From positions 6,739,802 to 6,803,801 of the forward strand of contig NZ_CP160680.1 of NCBI RefSeq assembly GCF_040784935.1: a stretch of 64,000 nucleotides of DNA, in the 5' to 3' direction. Positions 20,640-36,392 of this stretch are shown piece after piece. The notes beneath the pieces are model-generated. The model saw only the letters and a list, made by a program, of their open reading frames with translations. It had not been told where the DNA came from and searched no databases. Within the stretch, counting starts at the first letter, position 1, and every line of letters begins with the position of its first letter. Source of the DNA: Lewinella sp. LCG006 (GTDB lineage: Bacteria; Bacteroidota; Bacteroidia; Chitinophagales; Saprospiraceae). A program made the position numbers and the translations under genes.

Positions 20640-21644
20640 CTACTCCTGCAACCATTCCATCCGTTTGAGTTGCTGATACAGCTTCTCTGCTTGCCCAAAA
20701 CTCAACGTTTGCTGGCCATCACTGAAAGCTTTTTCCGGTTCGTGATGAACCTCCATGATAATACCATCTGCTCCTGCAACGGCTGAGGCTAGCGCTATTT
20801 TATCAACAAAACGGCGAACACCGATGCCGTGGCTAGGGTCGGCAATCACTGGCAAGTGGGTCTTCTCTTTGAGCATTACCAGTGCATTGATATCGAAAGT
20901 ATTGCGATAAGCTGTCTCATATGAACGAATACCCCGTTCACAGAGCATGATTCGTTCGTTGCCGTTACTGAAGATGTACTCTGCCGAGGCCAATAACTCG
21001 TCGATGGTGCCAGAAATACCTCGCTTTAGCAACACCGGGCGATCTACTTCACCCAAAGCATCTAACAAGTTGAAATTCTGACTATTACGAGCTCCCACTT
21101 GAAATACATCTACATAGTCATACATCTCTTCAATTTGGTCCACCATCATCACTTCTGTAATGATTTTGATACCTGCCTCTCTGGTCTGCTCGTGCCACAT
21201 TTTCAGGCCTTCAATACCCAAGCCTCGGAAGCTATAAGGAGAGGAACGAGGCTTGTACACCCCACCTCGCATAATACGGATGCCATTCTTTTTCATATGC
21301 GCTATCGTGAGCGCTACCTGCTCCTCCGACTCTATACTACAAGGGCCAACCATCATCGCAGGTGAGCCCTCCCCTATCCGAATACCGTCACCCAAATCAA
21401 TAACGGTATTGTCTATGCGCCATTTTTTGGAGACCAGTTTGTAGGCATCACTCACGCGGTGAATGTCTTTGATCCCGGGTAAAGTGCCAATAGATCGGAT
21501 GTCAAATTTTGTCTTCCCTACTCCTACCAAATAGTTGGCGTATTGGGTTTTCACCGGATTTAAGGAGTACTTGATTCTGGTCAGCTCTTTTTCCAGCCGA
21601 GCCAGTTGTTCTTGATTGATTTGGGGTTCTAATTGAATGATCAT
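20640..21644 (-). CDS. aroF: DAHP synthase (3-deoxy-7-phosphoheptulonate synthase), type I-beta
   Basis: Condenses phosphoenolpyruvate and erythrose-4-phosphate, the first step to chorismate. The catalytic barrel contains VGPCSIES, RGGVYKPRSSPYSF, LLKRGIS, LCERGIRSYET and ADPSHGIGVRR. About 90 N-terminal residues form a small ferredoxin-like regulatory domain, as in Thermotoga-type enzymes; there is no chorismate mutase fusion. It is the last gene of the trp cluster, 15 bases after trpA, so the trp attenuator should also control entry into the shikimate pathway. Confidence 0.92.
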   Translation of the reverse strand: MIIQLEPQINQEQLARLEKELTRIKYSLNPVKTQYANYLVGVGKTKFDIRSIGTLPGIKDIHRVSDAYKLVSKKWRIDNTVIDLGDGIRIGEGSPAMMVGPCSIESEEQVALTIAHMKKNGIRIMRGGVYKPRSSPYSFRGLGIEGLKMWHEQTREAGIKIITEVMMVDQIEEMYDYVDVFQVGARNSQNFNLLDALGEVDRPVLLKRGISGTIDELLASAEYIFSNGNERIMLCERGIRSYETAYRNTFDINALVMLKEKTHLPVIADPSHGIGVRRFVDKIALASAVAGADGIIMEVHHEPEKAFSDGQQTLSFGQAEKLYQQLKRMEWLQE

Positions 21645-21659
21645 AATTTCTTTGTTTTA

Positions 21660-22433
21660 TTAGCCTCTTACCATGGCTACAAATTGATTCGTTGTTGTTG
21701 TCACATCATCACCCGCAGCGAGTGCTTTGATGTAGGCACTTCCTATAATGGCACCAGCAGCGTACTTGCAAGCCGTAGCATAAGTCTCATGATCCGAAAT
21801 ACCAAAACCAATCAGTCGAGGGTTGTGCAAATCCATCGCTGCTATCCGTTCGAAGTAGGTGATTTGCTGATCTGAAATACCACTTTTAGCTCCCGTAATC
21901 GCTGCACTCGACACCATGTAGATAAACCCATCACTCAATTCATCTACTTTCTTTATGCGGTCATCCGTCGTTTGCGGCGTGATCAAAAAGCTCATACTGA
22001 GCCCTGCCGTTTCTATCTTCTTTTGGTAATGCTGCTCATATTCATAAAGCGGCAAATCCGGTAAAATAAGGCCATCTATCTCCGCCTTCAGGCAATCTGC
22101 CAGAAAACGATCAAATCCATACTGCAATACCTGGTTGAAATAGCCCATCAATACCAAGGGTATATCAACAGATTGCCTTGCTGCCCGGAGCTGCTCGAAT
22201 AAAAGCGGCATGGTCAAACCATTGCGCAGCGCCTGGGTGCCACTTTCCTGAATAGTAGGCCCATCTGCCAAGGGATCACTGTAAGGCATACCTACTTCTA
22301 TCAAGTCTACCCCAGCGGCTGCCAAAGCCTTGATGATGGTCACCGTGTCTTCTTTCTGAGGGTATCCTGCCGTAAAATAGATGTTCAGGATATGCTCCTG
22401 CTTATTTTGAAAAAGTTGTTTTATGCGATTCAT
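21660..22433 (-). CDS. trpA: tryptophan synthase alpha chain
   Basis: Cleaves indole-3-glycerol phosphate to indole and glyceraldehyde-3-phosphate. The 257 residues from the ATG at 22433 (MNRIKQLFQ...) match family length. The NIYFTAGYP, IEVGMPYSDPLADGPTIQ (catalytic Glu) and GLILPDLP segments are present, as are the phosphate-binding GFGIS and IIGSAYIKAL. The frame stays open for 51 codons upstream, but those codons run through a palindromic repeat and read as low-quality sequence, so I reject the longer start. It lies 205 bases after trpB instead of overlapping it. Confidence 0.93.
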   Translation of the reverse strand: MNRIKQLFQNKQEHILNIYFTAGYPQKEDTVTIIKALAAAGVDLIEVGMPYSDPLADGPTIQESGTQALRNGLTMPLLFEQLRAARQSVDIPLVLMGYFNQVLQYGFDRFLADCLKAEIDGLILPDLPLYEYEQHYQKKIETAGLSMSFLITPQTTDDRIKKVDELSDGFIYMVSSAAITGAKSGISDQQITYFERIAAMDLHNPRLIGFGISDHETYATACKYAAGAIIGSAYIKALAAGDDVTTTTNQFVAMVRG

Positions 22434-22453
22434 TTTTTGTTGTTTTTGCTCAT

Positions 22454-22627
22454 CCCGAATTCTCGGGACTCGCGGGGTACTCCTCCCGAAGCCTCGGGAT
22501 TCGTGGAGGTGCTCTCCCGACAAAAGGTCGGGATCGTGGTTTTTTCTACCACCTAGTAGCATCAAGCTCGTAAGCGCAGCGAACACAACCGTGAGTCCCG
22601 AGGCTTCGGTATGAGCACTCCGCGAGT
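22454..22627. repeat. composite palindromic insertion between trpB and trpA
   Basis: Outer arms of 39 bases, 22468-22506 and 22589-22627, are imperfect inverted copies that share CGAAGCCTCGGGA exactly. Smaller hairpins are nested inside or beside them: CCCGA/TCGGG at 22454-22467, CCCGAC/GTCGGG at 22516-22532 and GTGGT/ACCAC at 22536-22552. The element fills nearly all of the trpB-trpA spacer. Confidence 0.7.
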
Positions 22628-22638
22628 GCAGCGAGCAC

Positions 22639-23823
22639 CTATCTATCCAAATATTTCATATAAGTATCCAAATCTTTATCCCCTCGTCCGGAAAGACAAA
22701 TGACTAAGACGTCGTCGGCGTTGTACTTCATCTTGTCTAAAGCGGAGAAGGCGTGGGCGGTTTCCAAGGCGGGGATAATCCCTTCTGTTCGGCTGACATC
22801 TAAGGCTGCTTTGAGTGCTTCTTCGTCGGTTACATGGATCGCTTCGGCACGGCCTGTTTTGATCAGGTGGGCATGCATAGGGCCGATACCTGGATAATCC
22901 AGTCCGGCAGAGATGCTGTAGGGTTCGATAATCTGACCATCTTCTGTTTGCATCAGCAGCGTGCGGCTGCCGTGGATCACGCCTTCTGTTCCCAGAACGC
23001 TGGTGGCAGCAGATTCTCCCGAGTCAATTCCAAGACCAGCAGCTTCAACGGCAATCAGGCGTACCCGTTCGTCATTGAGGTAGTGATAGAAGGCTCCAGC
23101 AGCATTACTCCCTCCTCCTACACAGGCAATCACTGCATCGGGATAATCTCTTCCGGTATGTTCCTCCAACTGGTAGCGCATCTCTTCCGAAATCACCGAC
23201 TGAAAACGGGCGACCATATCCGGATAAGGATGGGGCCCCACCACCGAGCCAATGATGTAATGCGTATCGGTAGGATTGTTGATCCAATCGCGGATGGCCT
23301 CATTGGTAGCGTCTTTGAGGGTGCGGCTGCCACTCATGGCAGGGCGAACTTCAGCACCTAGCATCCTCATTCTGGCTACGTTGGGAGCTTGTCGGGCAAT
23401 GTCTACTTCGCCCATGTAGACGATGCACTCTACGCCCATCAGTGCACATACTGTTGCGGTAGCTACACCGTGCTGGCCAGCACCCGTTTCGGCGATAATG
23501 CGCTTTTTGCCCAAACGTTGGGCCAGCAGAATCTGCCCAATAGTATTGTTGATTTTGTGGGCCCCTGTGTGATTGAGGTCTTCACGTTTCAGGTAGATGG
23601 TCACTCCGTAGCGCTCACTCAGTCGCTTTGCGAGGTAAAGCGGTGTGGGCCGCCCGACGTAATCGCGCAGCAAATGCTGGAAATCCCTTTGGAATTTTTC
23701 TTCCTGCATCATGCTCAAGTAAGTTTGGCGCAATTCTTCCACGTTGGGGTAAAGCATTTCCGGGATGTAGGCTCCGCCAAAATCACCATAATACCCATGC
23801 TCGTCTACTGCTATTGTTTTCAT
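22639..23823 (-). CDS. trpB: tryptophan synthase beta chain
   Basis: Condenses indole with serine using pyridoxal phosphate. It has 394 residues, the standard length. The PLP lysine is in NHTGAHKINNTIGQ; the phosphate-binding glycine loop CVGGGSNAAGAF, the AETGAGQHGVA segment and the C-terminal CLSGRGDKD are all present. It sits 14 bases after trpF in the trp operon. Confidence 0.96.
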   Translation of the reverse strand: MKTIAVDEHGYYGDFGGAYIPEMLYPNVEELRQTYLSMMQEEKFQRDFQHLLRDYVGRPTPLYLAKRLSERYGVTIYLKREDLNHTGAHKINNTIGQILLAQRLGKKRIIAETGAGQHGVATATVCALMGVECIVYMGEVDIARQAPNVARMRMLGAEVRPAMSGSRTLKDATNEAIRDWINNPTDTHYIIGSVVGPHPYPDMVARFQSVISEEMRYQLEEHTGRDYPDAVIACVGGGSNAAGAFYHYLNDERVRLIAVEAAGLGIDSGESAATSVLGTEGVIHGSRTLLMQTEDGQIIEPYSISAGLDYPGIGPMHAHLIKTGRAEAIHVTDEEALKAALDVSRTEGIIPALETAHAFSALDKMKYNADDVLVICLSGRGDKDLDTYMKYLDR

Positions 23824-23837
23824 TGTTTCTTTTTTGT

Positions 23838-24491
23838 CTATTTAAACTCTCCTAAAAATTTCTCCAATTGATCGACATCTTTCAGGCCAGGTGCTAATTC
23901 AAATTTGCTATTCAAATCAATTCCCACCATTGCGGCATGATGGACTGCTTTTATCGATTCGGCATCCTCCGGGCCAATGCCCCCACTTAGTAGAAAAGGC
24001 GTCTTTCCGGTATACCGGCTAAGGATATCCCAATCAAACTTGTGACCAGTGCCTCCATATTCCTGTCCTTTGGTATCAAATAAGAAGTAGTCACAAAAGG
24101 GTTCATAGTCTACCGTAATACCAAAATCAAAAGCTCGACTGACGCGAAATGCACGGATGATGCCTGCCTTACGGATGCTGCTATCTCGCCAGAGTTCTTG
24201 TAGCGTAGCGCAGTAAACCGCACTTTCGCCACCATGCAATTGCACATAATCGAGTTCGTATTCGTGCACTGCTTCCAGGAGTTCGTTAAATTGTGCATTC
24301 ACAAAAACGCCCACGCGTTTGGGTCGCTGTTCCGTTTGGGCCTCCGCTTGGAGAAAAGCTTTCAGGTTCGCTTGCTCGCCGATAAAGCGAGGAGATTTGG
24401 GATAAAAAATCAATCCGATCCAATCTACCTCTAAGGCACTGACGGCCCTAATGTTATCCGGTTCGCGTAAGCCACAAGTTTTAACAATCAT
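23838..24491 (-). CDS. trpF: phosphoribosylanthranilate isomerase
   Basis: Amadori rearrangement of phosphoribosylanthranilate. The 217-residue beta/alpha barrel starts with IVKTCGL (catalytic Cys) and has VGVFVNA, VQLHG, FLFDTK (catalytic Asp) and LLSGGIGPED, with the final phosphate site VGIDLNSKFE. It lies 47 bases downstream of trpC and directly before trpB. Confidence 0.93.
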   Translation of the reverse strand: MIVKTCGLREPDNIRAVSALEVDWIGLIFYPKSPRFIGEQANLKAFLQAEAQTEQRPKRVGVFVNAQFNELLEAVHEYELDYVQLHGGESAVYCATLQELWRDSSIRKAGIIRAFRVSRAFDFGITVDYEPFCDYFLFDTKGQEYGGTGHKFDWDILSRYTGKTPFLLSGGIGPEDAESIKAVHHAAMVGIDLNSKFELAPGLKDVDQLEKFLGEFK

Positions 24492-24538: not shown

Positions 24539-25354
24539 TTAAGCAATAGCTCCGTCCAGTAATGCTTCCAGTCGTTGGATGCGCTGAATAAATGCTCGGC
24601 AATCCTCACCTGGATTTTCCTCCCGCATGAAGTGTTCTCCAATGAGGAAGCCCTGGAAACCTGCTCTGCGCAATTCTACTATCGCCTGGGCATCGTTCAA
24701 ACCACTTTCCGAGATCTTCACCATCTCGGTGGGAAGCAGCGGGAAGAGTTCCAAAGAATGCGAGATACTCACTTCAAAGGTTTGTAGATTTCGGTTATTG
24801 ACACCTACAATATTGGCCAACGGGCTCAGCTTATCCAGCTCCTGTGGGCCGTGCAATTCCACCAACACTTCAAGCCCCAGATTTTGAGCAAAACTCGCCA
24901 GCCGGTGGAGTTCTTCTTTTTCCAGACAGGCTGCAATCAACAAAATGGCATCGGCACCAATACTGCGTGCTTCCACAATCTGGTATTCATCAATGATAAA
25001 ATCCTTGCGCAGGATGGGGCAATAGTTGAATTTACGGGCTTCCGTCAGATCAGCGTTTTTGCCTCCGAAGAAGTGCTCATCCGTCAGGATCGACAAAGCC
25101 GATGCGCCGGCTTGCATGTAGCCGATACTGACCTCTTCTACTTTTGCGTATAAGTTGATCGCGCCCTTGGAGGGGCTGCGGCGTTTGAATTCAGCGATGA
25201 TTCCCTGCTTGTCTTCTCTTTGCAGGTATTTGCTCAGGCTCACCGTTGGGGTCTGAAAGTAAATGCTGTCTTCCAGTAATTTCACGGGAAAGCGTTCTTT
25301 GCGTTCTTTTACTTCCTCCCTTTTGTGGGCGATTATTTTGTCAAGGATATTCAT
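24539..25354 (-). CDS. trpC: indole-3-glycerol phosphate synthase
   Basis: Ring closure of the Amadori product to indole-3-glycerol phosphate. A 271-residue barrel with IIAEFKRRSPSKG (catalytic Lys/Glu), ALSILTDEHFFGG, ILRKDFIIDEYQI, VGVNNRNLQTF and KISESGL. It is monofunctional (trpF is separate). A palindromic element of ~120 bases separates it from trpD upstream. Confidence 0.95.
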   Translation of the reverse strand: MNILDKIIAHKREEVKERKERFPVKLLEDSIYFQTPTVSLSKYLQREDKQGIIAEFKRRSPSKGAINLYAKVEEVSIGYMQAGASALSILTDEHFFGGKNADLTEARKFNYCPILRKDFIIDEYQIVEARSIGADAILLIAACLEKEELHRLASFAQNLGLEVLVELHGPQELDKLSPLANIVGVNNRNLQTFEVSISHSLELFPLLPTEMVKISESGLNDAQAIVELRRAGFQGFLIGEHFMREENPGEDCRAFIQRIQRLEALLDGAIA

Positions 25355-25370
25355 AATTTAGTATTGCGCA

Positions 25371-25493
25371 GAAAATAAAATGCGATTTTTTCGGGGTTTC
25401 CCAAATAGCTAACACACTTGAAGTGAAGCGTTTAGTTAACTATTTGGGAAACAACCACGTAGTAGACGCGAAGCGAAATCGCATTTTATTTTC
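25371..25493. repeat. 123-bp nested palindrome between trpD and trpC
   Basis: Perfect 18-base outer arms (25371-25388 and 25476-25493, GAAAATAAAATGCGATTT and its complement). Inner 18-base arms (25396-25413 and 25435-25452, GTTTCCCAAATAGCTAAC) differ from perfect complement at one position. No target-site duplication is evident. It fills the spacer between the two genes and would fold into a long stem in the trp mRNA. Confidence 0.75.
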
Positions 25494-25503
25494 GTGCTGT
25501 TCT

Positions 25504-26496
25504 TTAATTGATTGAAGTTATCTTATAAAGCTTGGCCAGGGCACTCCCGGTTTCAATGCTCTCCCTAGCTTCCTGGACACAGTCGAGCAAGGATTTTTCC
25601 GGGCAGAGCGTATGAATAGCTAAACCTGCGTTGGCACAAACGACGGCCTTTTGCGCTGGGGTAGCCTGATCGTTGAGCACATCCAGAAAAATAGACTTTG
25701 CTTCCGCTGCTGTTTCACCGCCGTACAAGGCTTGAGGCTTGATGTAATACATTCCGAAATCATCGGGCGTAAGCAGTTGCTCACCACGAGAACTGTGCAC
25801 TTTTGCCAATCCCGTAAGGCTGATTTCATCGTAGCCATCCAAAGCAAATACGATAGCATACGCCCTTCCGGACGCCTGCATGATGTAATGATACAAACGG
25901 GAAAGCTCCTGCGAGAAAGTGCCGTACAACTGGTGGCTTGGCTGTACGGGGTTTACCAATGGGCCCAGCATATTGAAGAAGGTCTTCATACCCAGTTGTT
26001 TCCTAACGGGTACCACCGCTTTCAGCGCTGGATGAAACAGCGGCGCGTGCAAGAAGCAGATATTAGCTTGGTCCAACTGCCGGAGCAAGACGTCAGGATT
26101 ATTGGTAAATTCGTACCCCAGTTCCATCAGCACATTAGAGGAACCCACTGCCGAGGACACACCGTAGCTCCCGTGCTTCGTCACCTTGTAGCCAGCACCA
26201 GCTACTACCAAACAGGAACAGGTGGAGATATTGAAAGTGTTTTTACCATCGCCGCCGGTACCAACGATATCTATGGTCGTTTGGCCCTCTACATCCAGCG
26301 GCACCGCCAATTCCAAGAGGGCATCCTGAAAGCCTTGTAGTTCAGCCATTCCGATGCTCCGCATTTGAAAAACGGTCACAAAGCTGGCTACTTGTACGTC
26401 ATTGTATTCCTCGCGGGCAATGCCCAGCAATAGCTGCCGAGCTTCCTCGCGGGTCAGTTGCTCGTGGGTGAAAAGTTTTTCTAAGGTCTTTCTCAT
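25504..26496 (-). CDS. trpD: anthranilate phosphoribosyltransferase
   Basis: Transfers phosphoribose from PRPP to anthranilate. It has 330 residues with the glycine-rich PRPP loop VGTGGDGKNTFNIST, KHGSYGVSSAVGSSNVLMELG and FFNMLGPLVNP. Its start overlaps the trpG stop by 4 bases, indicating translational coupling. Confidence 0.95.
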   Translation of the reverse strand: MRKTLEKLFTHEQLTREEARQLLLGIAREEYNDVQVASFVTVFQMRSIGMAELQGFQDALLELAVPLDVEGQTTIDIVGTGGDGKNTFNISTCSCLVVAGAGYKVTKHGSYGVSSAVGSSNVLMELGYEFTNNPDVLLRQLDQANICFLHAPLFHPALKAVVPVRKQLGMKTFFNMLGPLVNPVQPSHQLYGTFSQELSRLYHYIMQASGRAYAIVFALDGYDEISLTGLAKVHSSRGEQLLTPDDFGMYYIKPQALYGGETAAEAKSIFLDVLNDQATPAQKAVVCANAGLAIHTLCPEKSLLDCVQEARESIETGSALAKLYKITSIN

Positions 26497-27089
26497 AGCG
26501 CGACGGCACGTTTTTCTTTAACAAAGGCAAAGAAGTTTTCCAGCATCTGGTGGCCCTGGGGCGTCATGATGCTTTCGGGGTGAAACTGGACACCAAAGAG
26601 TGGATACTCCCGATGGCGGATGGCCATGATTTCGCCCGTCTTGTCGACTGCCGTCAGTAGAAATTCTTTAGGCAGCGTATCCTTTTTGATGACCCAGCTG
26701 TGGTAACGCCCCGCGCGGAATTCATTGGGAATATTTCTAAACAAGACGGAATCTTCTGCCGTCTGTAGCATATTGGTTTCAATACCATGGTAAACTTCAG
26801 CCAGGTTTTCCAGGCTGCCACCAAAAGCTTCTCCTATCGCCTGGTGGCCCAGACAAACGCCGAGGATGAATTTCTCGCCCGCATAACGCTTGATCAGTTG
26901 GGGCATAATGCCGGCCTCTTCCGGTAGGCCTGGCCCGGGAGAAAGGATGATCACATCGTAAGCCGCCACTTCCTCCACGGTGATGGCATCGTTGCGGATG
27001 ACGTCTACTTTTTGCTCCAATATCTCCTGTACATATTGTACCAGGTTGTAGGTAAAGGAGTCGTAATTATCAAGGACTAAAACTTTCAT
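26493..27089 (-). CDS. trpG: anthranilate synthase glutaminase subunit
   Basis: Supplies ammonia from glutamine to TrpE. The 198 residues starting at the ATG at 27089 (MKVLVLDNYDSFTYN) match the family start; a longer ORF to 27128 only adds sequence overlapping the trpE end. The class I amidotransferase triad is visible: nucleophile in LGVCLGHQAIGEAFGG, and His/Glu in GVQFHPESIMT. It lies 10 bases after trpE. Confidence 0.95.
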   Translation of the reverse strand: MKVLVLDNYDSFTYNLVQYVQEILEQKVDVIRNDAITVEEVAAYDVIILSPGPGLPEEAGIMPQLIKRYAGEKFILGVCLGHQAIGEAFGGSLENLAEVYHGIETNMLQTAEDSVLFRNIPNEFRAGRYHSWVIKKDTLPKEFLLTAVDKTGEIMAIRHREYPLFGVQFHPESIMTPQGHQMLENFFAFVKEKRAVAL

Positions 27090-27099
27090 TTTTATATTT

Positions 27100-28512
27100 T
27101 TATAATTTGGTCGCTTCTTCCAACGCACGCTTCAAAGCGCCCAATTTATTATTGACTTCTTGTAATTCTTTTTCTTCATCACTGGCCACTACGATGCCCG
27201 CTCCGGCCTGGTAAAACAGCTTATTGTTTTGGCTCATGAAGGAGCGGATAACGATGGCCTGGTTCATTTCGCCATTGAAATCCACATATCCTAAGGCACC
27301 GCCATAGAAGGAGCGATTTTGGTTTTCGTAACGATTGATCAGTTCAATGGCCTTGTACTTGGGTGCCCCCGAGAGCGTCCCCGCCGGGAAAGTATCCCCA
27401 AAAATCTGGATGGGGTTGCTATCCGGGCCCAACTCGCCCGTGACGGTAGACACCAGGTGAATAACGTGGCTGTAATAGTGAATGTCTTTCAATTCCCGCA
27501 CCTGCACATCGTGGGCATGACGCCCCAGATCGTTCCTGGCCAAATCCACCAGCATGATGTGTTCGGCATTTTCCTTGGGGTCTTTACGAAGATCCTCCGC
27601 CGCTTGTGCGTCTGTTTCCATATTGCCCGTGCGGCGGTAGGTGCCTGCTATAGGATTGACCCTGGCCTGCCCGTGGCGGATAACCATCTGTGCCTCCGGC
27701 GAAGAACCAAAAATGCGATAGTCGCCATAATCGAAATAGAAAAGATAGGGAGAGGGGTTGACGGAACGGAGAACGCGGTAGACCTGAAATTCGTCGCCCT
27801 GAAAAGCTTGCTGAAACTGGCGACTAAAAACAATTTGGAAGACATCACCGCGCTGGCAGTGGTGCTTGCCGATGCGTACCAGCTCTTTGAATTCATCGTT
27901 GGTCAGGTTGCTGGTTTCCTCCCCCTGGAGTGCGAATGGATGTACGCGGAAGCGGTGGCTTTGGATGCGCGTCTGTAGCTCATCCAGGCGGCTTTCTTCA
28001 CCTGGCAATCGGTTTTCCAACAAGTACAATTCATCCTTGTAATGATTGATGGCCAGGATGAAGCGGTAGAGGTGGTAGCGCAGGTCGGGCAGGTCAAATT
28101 TGCGCTTCTCGGCAGGAAAATCCAGGGTATCAAAATACTGTACTCCATCAAATCCGGTGTGCCCAAAGAGCCCATTGAAGCCGCGGAATGGTGCATCTCC
28201 CTGTGGCTCAAAGTGGCTGAGGAAAGCTTTGAATTCTCCTGCCACGGTTTGGGTGCCAGTCAAAGGGCGCGTTTCGGTTTCCTCGCCGGGAAACTGGGTT
28301 TTTATCCTCCCCGCCTGCACCTGAAAGCTGGCCAGGGTATCAAGGCCGATAAAGCTGAAGCATTCTTCTTTATTGCTGATATCATTGCTTTCCAGCAAAA
28401 CGGGATCCGTATAATGATCTCGCAACCGGAGATACAAGGAAACGGGCGTAAGCGTATCCGAAAGCATTTTGCGGACACTCACCTTTAAGGCTATTTTTGT
28501 GATTGTGGACAT
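27100..28512 (-). CDS. trpE: anthranilate synthase component I
   Basis: Converts chorismate and ammonia to anthranilate. It has 470 residues with the chorismate-binding core: GDVFQIVFSRQF, FGSSPEAQM, PIAGTYRRTG, LVDLARNDLGRH, TFPAGTLSGAPKYKA and YQAGAGIVVASD. The start at 28512 is 18 bases after the attenuator T-run; an internal ATG at 28467 is an alternative. It is the first structural gene of the operon and lies immediately downstream of the leader attenuator. Confidence 0.95.
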   Translation of the reverse strand: MSTITKIALKVSVRKMLSDTLTPVSLYLRLRDHYTDPVLLESNDISNKEECFSFIGLDTLASFQVQAGRIKTQFPGEETETRPLTGTQTVAGEFKAFLSHFEPQGDAPFRGFNGLFGHTGFDGVQYFDTLDFPAEKRKFDLPDLRYHLYRFILAINHYKDELYLLENRLPGEESRLDELQTRIQSHRFRVHPFALQGEETSNLTNDEFKELVRIGKHHCQRGDVFQIVFSRQFQQAFQGDEFQVYRVLRSVNPSPYLFYFDYGDYRIFGSSPEAQMVIRHGQARVNPIAGTYRRTGNMETDAQAAEDLRKDPKENAEHIMLVDLARNDLGRHAHDVQVRELKDIHYYSHVIHLVSTVTGELGPDSNPIQIFGDTFPAGTLSGAPKYKAIELINRYENQNRSFYGGALGYVDFNGEMNQAIVIRSFMSQNNKLFYQAGAGIVVASDEEKELQEVNNKLGALKRALEEATKL

Positions 28513-28537
28513 ATTGATCTTGAGGTTGGATAAAATA

Positions 28538-28573
28538 AAAATCGGCTTGCCGAGTGAACGACAAGCCGATTTT
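28538..28573 (-). terminator. trp attenuator terminator hairpin
   Basis: Perfect 12-bp stem (AAAATCGGCTTG / CAAGCCGATTTT) with a 12-base loop, followed on the minus strand by TTTTTATTTTA and then the trpE start. The loop carries TTCACTC, which is complementary to GAGTGAA in the 3' part of the leader reading frame (within 28602-28610), giving an alternative antiterminator pairing. A small pause-type hairpin (GTGTA TTGTT TACAC) lies at 28576-28592. Confidence 0.88.
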
Positions 28574-28599
28574 CAGTGTGTAAACAATACACGAGCAGC

Positions 28600-28662
28600 C
28601 TATTCACTCTGGTCAGAATGTTTAGAATGCCACCACCAATTGTTTTGCTTACACAGATTCAT
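28600..28662 (-). CDS. trpL: trp operon leader peptide with three consecutive Trp codons
   Basis: A 20-codon ORF, MNLCKQNNWWWHSKHSDQSE, ending in TAG. The three TGG codons occupy 28638-28630. Trp is normally about 1% of residues, so a run of three in a 20-residue ORF directly upstream of trpE is not accidental. A ribosome stalled on these codons would leave GAGTGAA (codons 18-20) free to pair with TTCACTC in the terminator; a ribosome that reaches the stop would cover it and let the terminator form. Confidence 0.9.
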   Translation of the reverse strand: MNLCKQNNWWWHSKHSDQSE

Positions 28663-28680
28663 TGTAAATAATTATGCCGC

Positions 28681-28712
28681 CAAATATAAGGGAGGAAAAT
28701 TGACTTATGCAA
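28681..28712 (-). promoter_or_regulatory. trp operon promoter
   Basis: TATATTTG (28688-28681) fits the TANNTTTG -7 consensus, with TTG (28712-28710) 21 bases upstream as the -33 element. Initiation would fall near 28675, a dozen bases before the leader-peptide ATG. Confidence 0.6.
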
Positions 28713-36264: not shown

Positions 36265-36392
36265 AAGTCGGAAGTCGGAAGTACACCAGGACACACGCAA
36301 CCCTTTCAGAAATAGTCCTGAAAGGACGACATATACTGGCGTGGGACGCAAGTCCTACGCTCTAATAAAGTCGGAAGTCGGAAAGCGGAAGT
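36265..36392. repeat. two hairpins framed by direct repeats of AAGTCGGAAGTCGGAA
   Basis: AAGTCGGAAGTCGGAAGT at 36265-36282 recurs at 36368-36383 (AAGTCGGAAGTCGGAA, with AGCGGAAGT following). Between them lie a perfect hairpin (CCTTTCAG / CTGAAAGG, 8-base loop) and a near-perfect one (GCGTGGGAC gcaa GTCCTACGC). The same 18-mer, inverted, lies at 49578-49595 where the IS1634-like element inserted. It looks like a dispersed palindromic-repeat family of this genome. Confidence 0.65.

Follow-up and report, generated by a model that had tools for sequence, protein, structure and literature searches.

What controls the tryptophan biosynthetic genes of Lewinella sp. LCG006, and, in particular, is the short open reading frame with three consecutive Trp codons that precedes trpE the sensor of an attenuator? 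The enterobacterial trpL region, the classical case, encodes a leader peptide with tandem Trp codons, its transcript can form the mutually exclusive helices 1:2, 2:3 and 3:4, and a terminator stands before trpE. A first-pass annotation, made from the sequence alone, supposed that the same logic operates here.

The leader and the genes behind it

The features of the locus are listed in Table 1, with coordinates in the window, that is, the whole 64,000-nucleotide stretch of DNA that was analysed. Read along the minus strand, they come in the order promoter, leader frame (MNLCKQNNWWWHSKHSDQSE), strong hairpin with a T-rich tail, and trpE, whose open reading frame begins 18 nt past that tail. In these respects the first-pass annotation was right: direct reading finds the TTG and TATATTTG elements upstream of the leader frame, the frame has its 20 codons with Trp-Trp-Trp, and trpE follows. 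The two elements resemble TTG/TAnnTTTG, which I take to be the promoter consensus of Bacteroidota; the TATATTTG promoter is absent from the output of a sigma-70 scan of the window. No Shine-Dalgarno sequence is expected before a leader frame in Bacteroidota, unlike that of the enterobacterial trpL.

Table 1. Features of the trp leader and gene cluster, given as positions in the window.
Feature	Position	Strand	Description or basis
Promoter, Bacteroidota-type	28681..28712	-	TTG 28712-28710, spacer 21 nt, TATATTTG 28688-28681; read from sequence
Leader ORF, 20 codons	28600..28662	-	MNLCKQNNWWWHSKHSDQSE and stop; ATG 28662, TAG ends 28600; sequence
Regulatory codons TGG TGG TGG	28630..28638	-	codons 9-11; sequence and chance controls
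Segment 1	28633..28656	-	codons 3-10, including two Trp codons; pairs with segment 2
Segment 2, proximal part	28591..28613	-	around leader stop codon; antiterminator 5' strand, holds GAGTGAA
Segment 2, distal part	28576..28599	-	1:2 protector helix; pairs with segment 1
Segment 3	28549..28569	-	antiterminator 3' strand; terminator 5' arm and loop (TCGGCTTGTCGTTCACTCGGC)
Intrinsic terminator (3:4)	28531..28575	-	stem 28575-28536, loop TTCACT 28558-28553, T-rich tail to 28531
trpE, anthranilate synthase component I	27100..28512	-	best NCBIfam match TIGR00564 trpE_most, 406.7 bits, below cut-off 517.7; heads trp cluster
trpG	26493..27128	-	TIGR00566, above cut-off
trpD	25504..26496	-	TIGR01245, above cut-off
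trpC	24539..25354	-	NF001377, above cut-off
trpF	23838..24491	-	best match NF002298, E 6e-44, below cut-off
trpB	22639..23823	-	TIGR00263, above cut-off
trpA	21660..22586	-	TIGR00262, above cut-off, match from residue 59
DAHP synthase gene, final gene of cluster	20640..21644	-	NF006421 and TIGR01361, above cut-off

TrpE and TrpF are named by their best matches, which fall under the curated cut-offs, and the other six genes pass theirs. The true start of trpA probably lies about 50 codons inside the listed frame. The cluster does end with a DAHP synthase gene, as had been claimed, and since the gap before it is 15 nt, this gene would be carried on the same transcript. Some 150 nt (25355-25503) separate the trpD and trpC frames, and they contain only a weak terminator-like hairpin.

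Conservation of the Trp run and of the pairings

The first-pass annotation had suggested looking in the trpE leaders of related genomes for conserved Trp codons and a covarying pairing. Both are there. The set compared was the best 80 of 561 confirmed trpE loci, mostly from Saprospiraceae, and a leader frame with a Trp run (adjacent Trp codons or Trp-Arg-Trp) precedes trpE in 78 of them, among which L051 and L057 have such a leader with a TTG start only; the antiterminator pairing, for its part, is kept with compensatory changes, as detailed below. The two misses are L065, whose upstream sequence is limited to 2 nt, and L071, a testable locus without a leader by the criteria used. Short frames upstream of trpE with an ATG start and two adjacent Trp codons occur in 70 of the 80 loci as against 18 of 1580 dinucleotide shuffles. 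Those with three occur in 56 of the 80 and in none of the 1580 shuffles, none of 80 reverse strands and none of 80 same-length stretches within trpE. The Trp run is therefore not the product of chance, an explanation that these three controls rule out.

Outside the Trp run the leader peptides vary, and the position of the stop codon shifts relative to the motif GGGTGA or GAGTGA, which keeps near the stop codon, whether within the frame, spanning the stop, or just past it. A variable peptide, with a stop that moves about a fixed motif, is what would be expected of a constraint on the RNA and not on the peptide.

For the study of structure, 74 leaders were parsed, those of the window and of 73 of the 80 loci. 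Left out were the two misses and five loci (L042, L048, L051, L053 and L063) where a leader is present and the terminator failed the filter. In the 60 nt before the leader ATG, TAnnTTTG is found in 46 of the 74 (0.04 in mononucleotide shuffles) and the shorter TAnnTTT in 61 (0.26 in mononucleotide shuffles).

The hairpin and T-run before trpE are present as the first-pass annotation described them, except in length: there are not 12 base pairs but 15, with a 6-nt loop (28573-28538), or 17 according to the terminator scan (28575-28536). Because the terminator is longer than was thought, TTCACTC (28558-28552) takes in the 6-nt loop and one further base, the first of the 3' arm. The pairing of this sequence with GAGTGAA (28609-28603, codons 18-20) is real, but the antiterminator is longer, 28613-28591 with 28569-28549, and has this pairing as its core. 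An antiterminator confined to the terminator loop was thus rejected, the pairing reaching into the terminator 5' arm. Also rejected, by reasoning alone, was a pseudoknot of GAGTGAA with the loop of the intact terminator, since no nucleotides would remain to bridge the helices. A third helix, 1:2 (28656-28633 with 28599-28576), had gone unmentioned; in the folds it is this helix that keeps the switch off in ribosome-free RNA.

The leader of the window folds with a z of -6.4 (200 shuffles). Its 1:2 duplex has a predicted energy of -18.0 kcal/mol (shuffle z -3.7) and its 2:3 duplex one of -18.5 kcal/mol. Taken for the window alone, the 2:3 duplex has only a moderate advantage over shuffles (z -2.2, matched by 11 of 200), and a control in which region 2 was paired with the 5' UTR did better (z -3.2, 1 of 200). 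Over the 74 leaders, segments pair more stably with their own partners than with partners swapped from other leaders, with means of -13.5 vs. -8.8 kcal/mol for 1:2 and -19.2 vs. -16.6 kcal/mol for 2:3 (0 of 2000 permutations in each case), and among 41 non-redundant leaders the same comparison gives z values of -12.4 and -5.9, respectively. When the partners were shuffled instead, the median z was -2.4 for 1:2 and -2.6 for 2:3, as compared with 0.1 and 0.3 for two unrelated control pairings. Taken singly, 29 of the 74 leaders (1:2) and 37 (2:3) beat all but 2 of 200 shuffles. A candidate second protector, segment C (after the Trp codons) with D, gave z values of -3.7 and -4.6 and was set aside, with failed-fold energies at some loci.

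Covariation was counted in an alignment of 48 leaders, drawn from 57 non-redundant ones. Nine divergent leaders (L005, L035, L052, L062, L064, L069, L072, L074 and L078) lie outside the alignment, so that the covariation counts and the model built from the 48 rest on the more alignable part; the nine are included in the comparison of own and swapped partners over 74 leaders. The counts are of sequences, not of independent events. On that basis, the core of the 2:3 antiterminator has 35 cells with two-sided compensatory changes, e.g., from GAGTGA/TCACTC to GAATGA/TCATTC, vs. 5.1 in shuffles, and the number drops to 4-5 when the columns are slid by one to three; these columns are common to 3:4, and terminator pairing constrains them as well. 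One of five covariation measures, the number of further pair types in 2:3, gave 16 vs. 15.1 in shuffles (179 of 500). Within the terminator, 99.6% of cells are paired, 13 of the 16 stem pairs show two-sided changes, and such changes number 56 vs. 10.7 in shuffles. Neolewinella, outside the alignment, has GAGCA at the stop codon facing TGCTC in the terminator, as judged by eye.

Ribosome position and competing explanations

To represent a ribosome on the leader, a block of the RNA was masked, and the RNA was ended before the terminator 3' arm. In the leader of the window, the antiterminator pairs number 16.6 with the ribosome at the Trp codons, 0.2 in ribosome-free RNA, and 0.0 with the ribosome at the stop codon, this last value being partly a matter of construction since the mask covers region 2. 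Six or more antiterminator pairs form in 70 of the 74 leaders when the ribosome is stalled and in none when it is at the stop codon; in 21 the antiterminator forms in ribosome-free RNA too. Once the 3' arm exists, the complete terminator wins at equilibrium in every ribosome state according to the folding predictions, and the switch must therefore be kinetic.

The equilibrium result, with the terminator most stable whatever the ribosome state, would also fit a terminator that acts as a constant brake or that ends some unrelated short transcript, the Trp-run frame being a coincidence, and one locus alone cannot show regulation. But over dozens of species all three pairings (1:2, 2:3 and 3:4) have been kept together with the Trp run, which makes this explanation very improbable. 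A shade less probable still is an arrest peptide like TnaC, which would sense free tryptophan in the exit tunnel, in place of codons that sense charged tRNA-Trp. The resemblance is that a Trp-containing nascent peptide precedes an operon of Trp metabolism; however, this operon is biosynthetic, it has an intrinsic terminator with a matched antiterminator, and, apart from the start Met and the Trp run, the residues of the leader vary (compare MNLFITWRWRFSSSKG, MINLLNKGWWQNSLPK and MQMTNTNWWWLNRTPE), no arrest residue of the TnaC type beyond Trp being constant, by eye, in the leaders of the relatives. On a par with the arrest peptide in improbability is some other Trp sensor on the same leader, a T-box, a TRAP-like protein or a riboswitch such as control trp genes in Firmicutes, for neither the window, searched at Rfam gathering scores, nor the leader, searched at E up to 10, has a T-box or riboswitch match, and the Trp-codon frame would be left unexplained.

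The locus is very probably, then, a ribosome-mediated transcription attenuator of the trp operon with the logic of enterobacterial trpL. This was the proposal of the first-pass annotation, and it stands as the best reading, the Trp run and the pairing both being kept in relatives. The predicted sequence of events is as follows. In a leader free of ribosomes, segment 1 would pair with segment 2, leaving segment 3 free to form the 3:4 terminator. If the leader is translated while charged tRNA-Trp is ample, the ribosome would proceed to the stop codon and mask the proximal part of segment 2, again permitting the terminator. If charged tRNA-Trp is scarce, the ribosome would halt on the three Trp codons, mask segment 1 and so free segment 2, which would pair with the 5' arm and loop of the terminator to give the 2:3 antiterminator. 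Provided that ribosome and polymerase are coupled, the polymerase would then read through, in a Trp-dependent manner, into trpE-G-D-C-F-B-A and the DAHP synthase gene.

The leader shares with enterobacterial trpL the tandem Trp codons, the exclusive 1:2, 2:3 and 3:4 helices and the intrinsic terminator before trpE, and it differs in having three Trp codons where trpL has two. RF00513, which I take to be the Rfam number of the enterobacterial trp leader, is absent from the Rfam matches of the window and of the leader. Trp attenuators predicted in Actinobacteria (PMC1262725) also have double or triple UGG with a terminator and antiterminator before trp operons; they belong to another phylum and possess a different conserved core, gGCC-rGCy-GGCC.

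Occurrence in Bacteroidota and relation to RF01692

The phylum was sampled through 158 genomes, of which 146 have a TrpE-like match, and 60 upstream stretches were fetched. Thirty-four of these are same-class stretches, comprising all full-length matches in the same family, order or class (four further genomes of those ranks, with weak partial matches only, fall outside the 34). The remaining 26, of 107 from other classes, were hand-picked to span families. In one of the comparisons L091 and L098 had been cut at the wrong place and were left unused, and L111 lies on the same contig as L077. A scan of L081-L102 that was not oriented to the trpE strand found WWW in at least 9 of 22 and was left unused. 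All 34 same-class stretches have a Trp-run leader (29 WWW, three WW and two WLW), as do 15 of the 26 from other classes. In the other 11 no Trp-run leader was found upstream of the TrpE-like gene, and the trait is thus widespread, not universal. Five or more antiterminator pairs were predicted in 30 of 33 parsed same-class leaders with the ribosome stalled, in 12 ribosome-free, and in one with the ribosome at the stop codon. The corresponding counts for 14 leaders of other classes are 8, 5 and 0, which means that, under this crude masking model, the switch is less clear in those classes.

The first-pass annotation thought a full peptide-based Trp leader worth documenting here. The kind is on record for this phylum: Rfam already has RF01692, Bacteroid-trp, the "Bacteroidete tryptophan peptide leader RNA", and the motif appears in a table of 2010 (Weinberg 2010, PMC2864571). 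RF01692 aligns with the window end to end (1-131 of 131 at 28682-28560), and the two, from the same phylum, agree in register at the UGG codons, at the terminal GGCUUGUC and over parts of the 1:2 helix. The model stops with GGCUUGUC, which is the 5' arm of the terminator, so that the 3' arm and the 2:3 antiterminator are both outside it. The score, 21.7 bits, is below the gathering score of 49; by the rule of Rfam the leader of the window is not a member, and the threshold misses it. It and RF01692 are probably the same ancestral element, the leader having diverged to below the Rfam cut-off.

Other leaders are in the same position. The gathering score is reached by RF01692 in 4 of 20 same-class stretches (hand-picked from the 34), in none of 20 trpE loci of relatives (hand-picked from the 80), and, with stricter filters, in 12 of the 158 genomes of the phylum. 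Searches of whole genomes gave no RF01692 match at E up to 1 in the genome of the window and one genome over the cut-off among 40 relatives; of the nine matches listed in those 40 genomes at E up to 1, six are the trpE leader. With a model (R1) made from the 48 aligned leaders, the best match is the trpE leader in 19 of the 40, at E 1.3e-6 or better, a figure that serves as a gauge and not as an independent test, since several of these 19 genomes supplied leaders to the model. Rfam's Bacteroid-trp, with 1 of 40 over the cut-off vs. 19 of 40 for R1, therefore misses nearly all close relatives. The leader of the window is an ordinary, well-conserved example of a switch already catalogued for the phylum, and what is added here is the full three-helix switch, its support from covariation, and its spread below the Rfam threshold.

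Within its own genome (G000), R1 has six matches, including the trpE leader and the reverse strand of that leader. The others are not copies of the attenuator: 68500-68634 and, on the opposite strand, 68467-68537 are terminator-like hairpins without a Trp frame, as is 5049775-5049847, and 2846943-2847052 (E 0.08) lies inside a long open frame. Also in the window, Rfam's Acido-Lenti-1 RNA matches 36314-36359 on the minus strand (49.3 bits, cut-off 37), a motif entered under Acidobacteria and Lentisphaerae in the 2010 table (PMC2864571).

Leaders before other genes were seen as well. In three genomes of one other family (G177, G119 and G138; L175, L176 and L177), trpD is on a different contig from trpE and has its own WWW leader, with an RF01692 match below the cut-off. 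Elsewhere in the genome of the window (G000:C1, near 2545796, minus strand; L185), a frame with a His run, MNLTFVHHHHSGFAFAANGDLMRA, lies just after a tRNA-Phe gene; between it and hisG stands a terminator-like hairpin, and the whole is probably a histidine attenuator. R1 also matched a His leader, MNYNTSHRHHHASLLR, before hisG in G013 (L184), where the terminator, of the GCGGCTTATC type, is very like the trp terminators. Peptide-based attenuation is thus probably not confined to trp, and simple patterns found no such leader around ilvB and ilvD.

A literature search turned up no study devoted to trp attenuators of Bacteroidota and no dedicated study of ribosome-polymerase coupling in the phylum. 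Lopatovskaya 2010 (Mol Biol 44:128), known here as cited in PMC4833913, may cover Bacteroidota. In two other reports, Flavobacterium psychrophilum is said to offer strong clues for leader-peptide attenuation before amino-acid operons (PMC9723704), and leader-like short frames are mentioned for Bacteroides (PMC7366714).

At the locus considered here, classical attenuation is now the likely control of the trp operon, and the natural variants of its leader supply ready compensatory pairs with which to test ribosome-polymerase coupling in Bacteroidota. It is conceivable, though I put it at somewhat under an even chance, that a single trp attenuator of the ribosome-mediated kind was already present at the base of Bacteroidota and persists in most of its trp operons. 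If so, ribosome and polymerase would be tightly coupled, at least at leaders, throughout a phylum whose leader frames are expected to be without Shine-Dalgarno sites.
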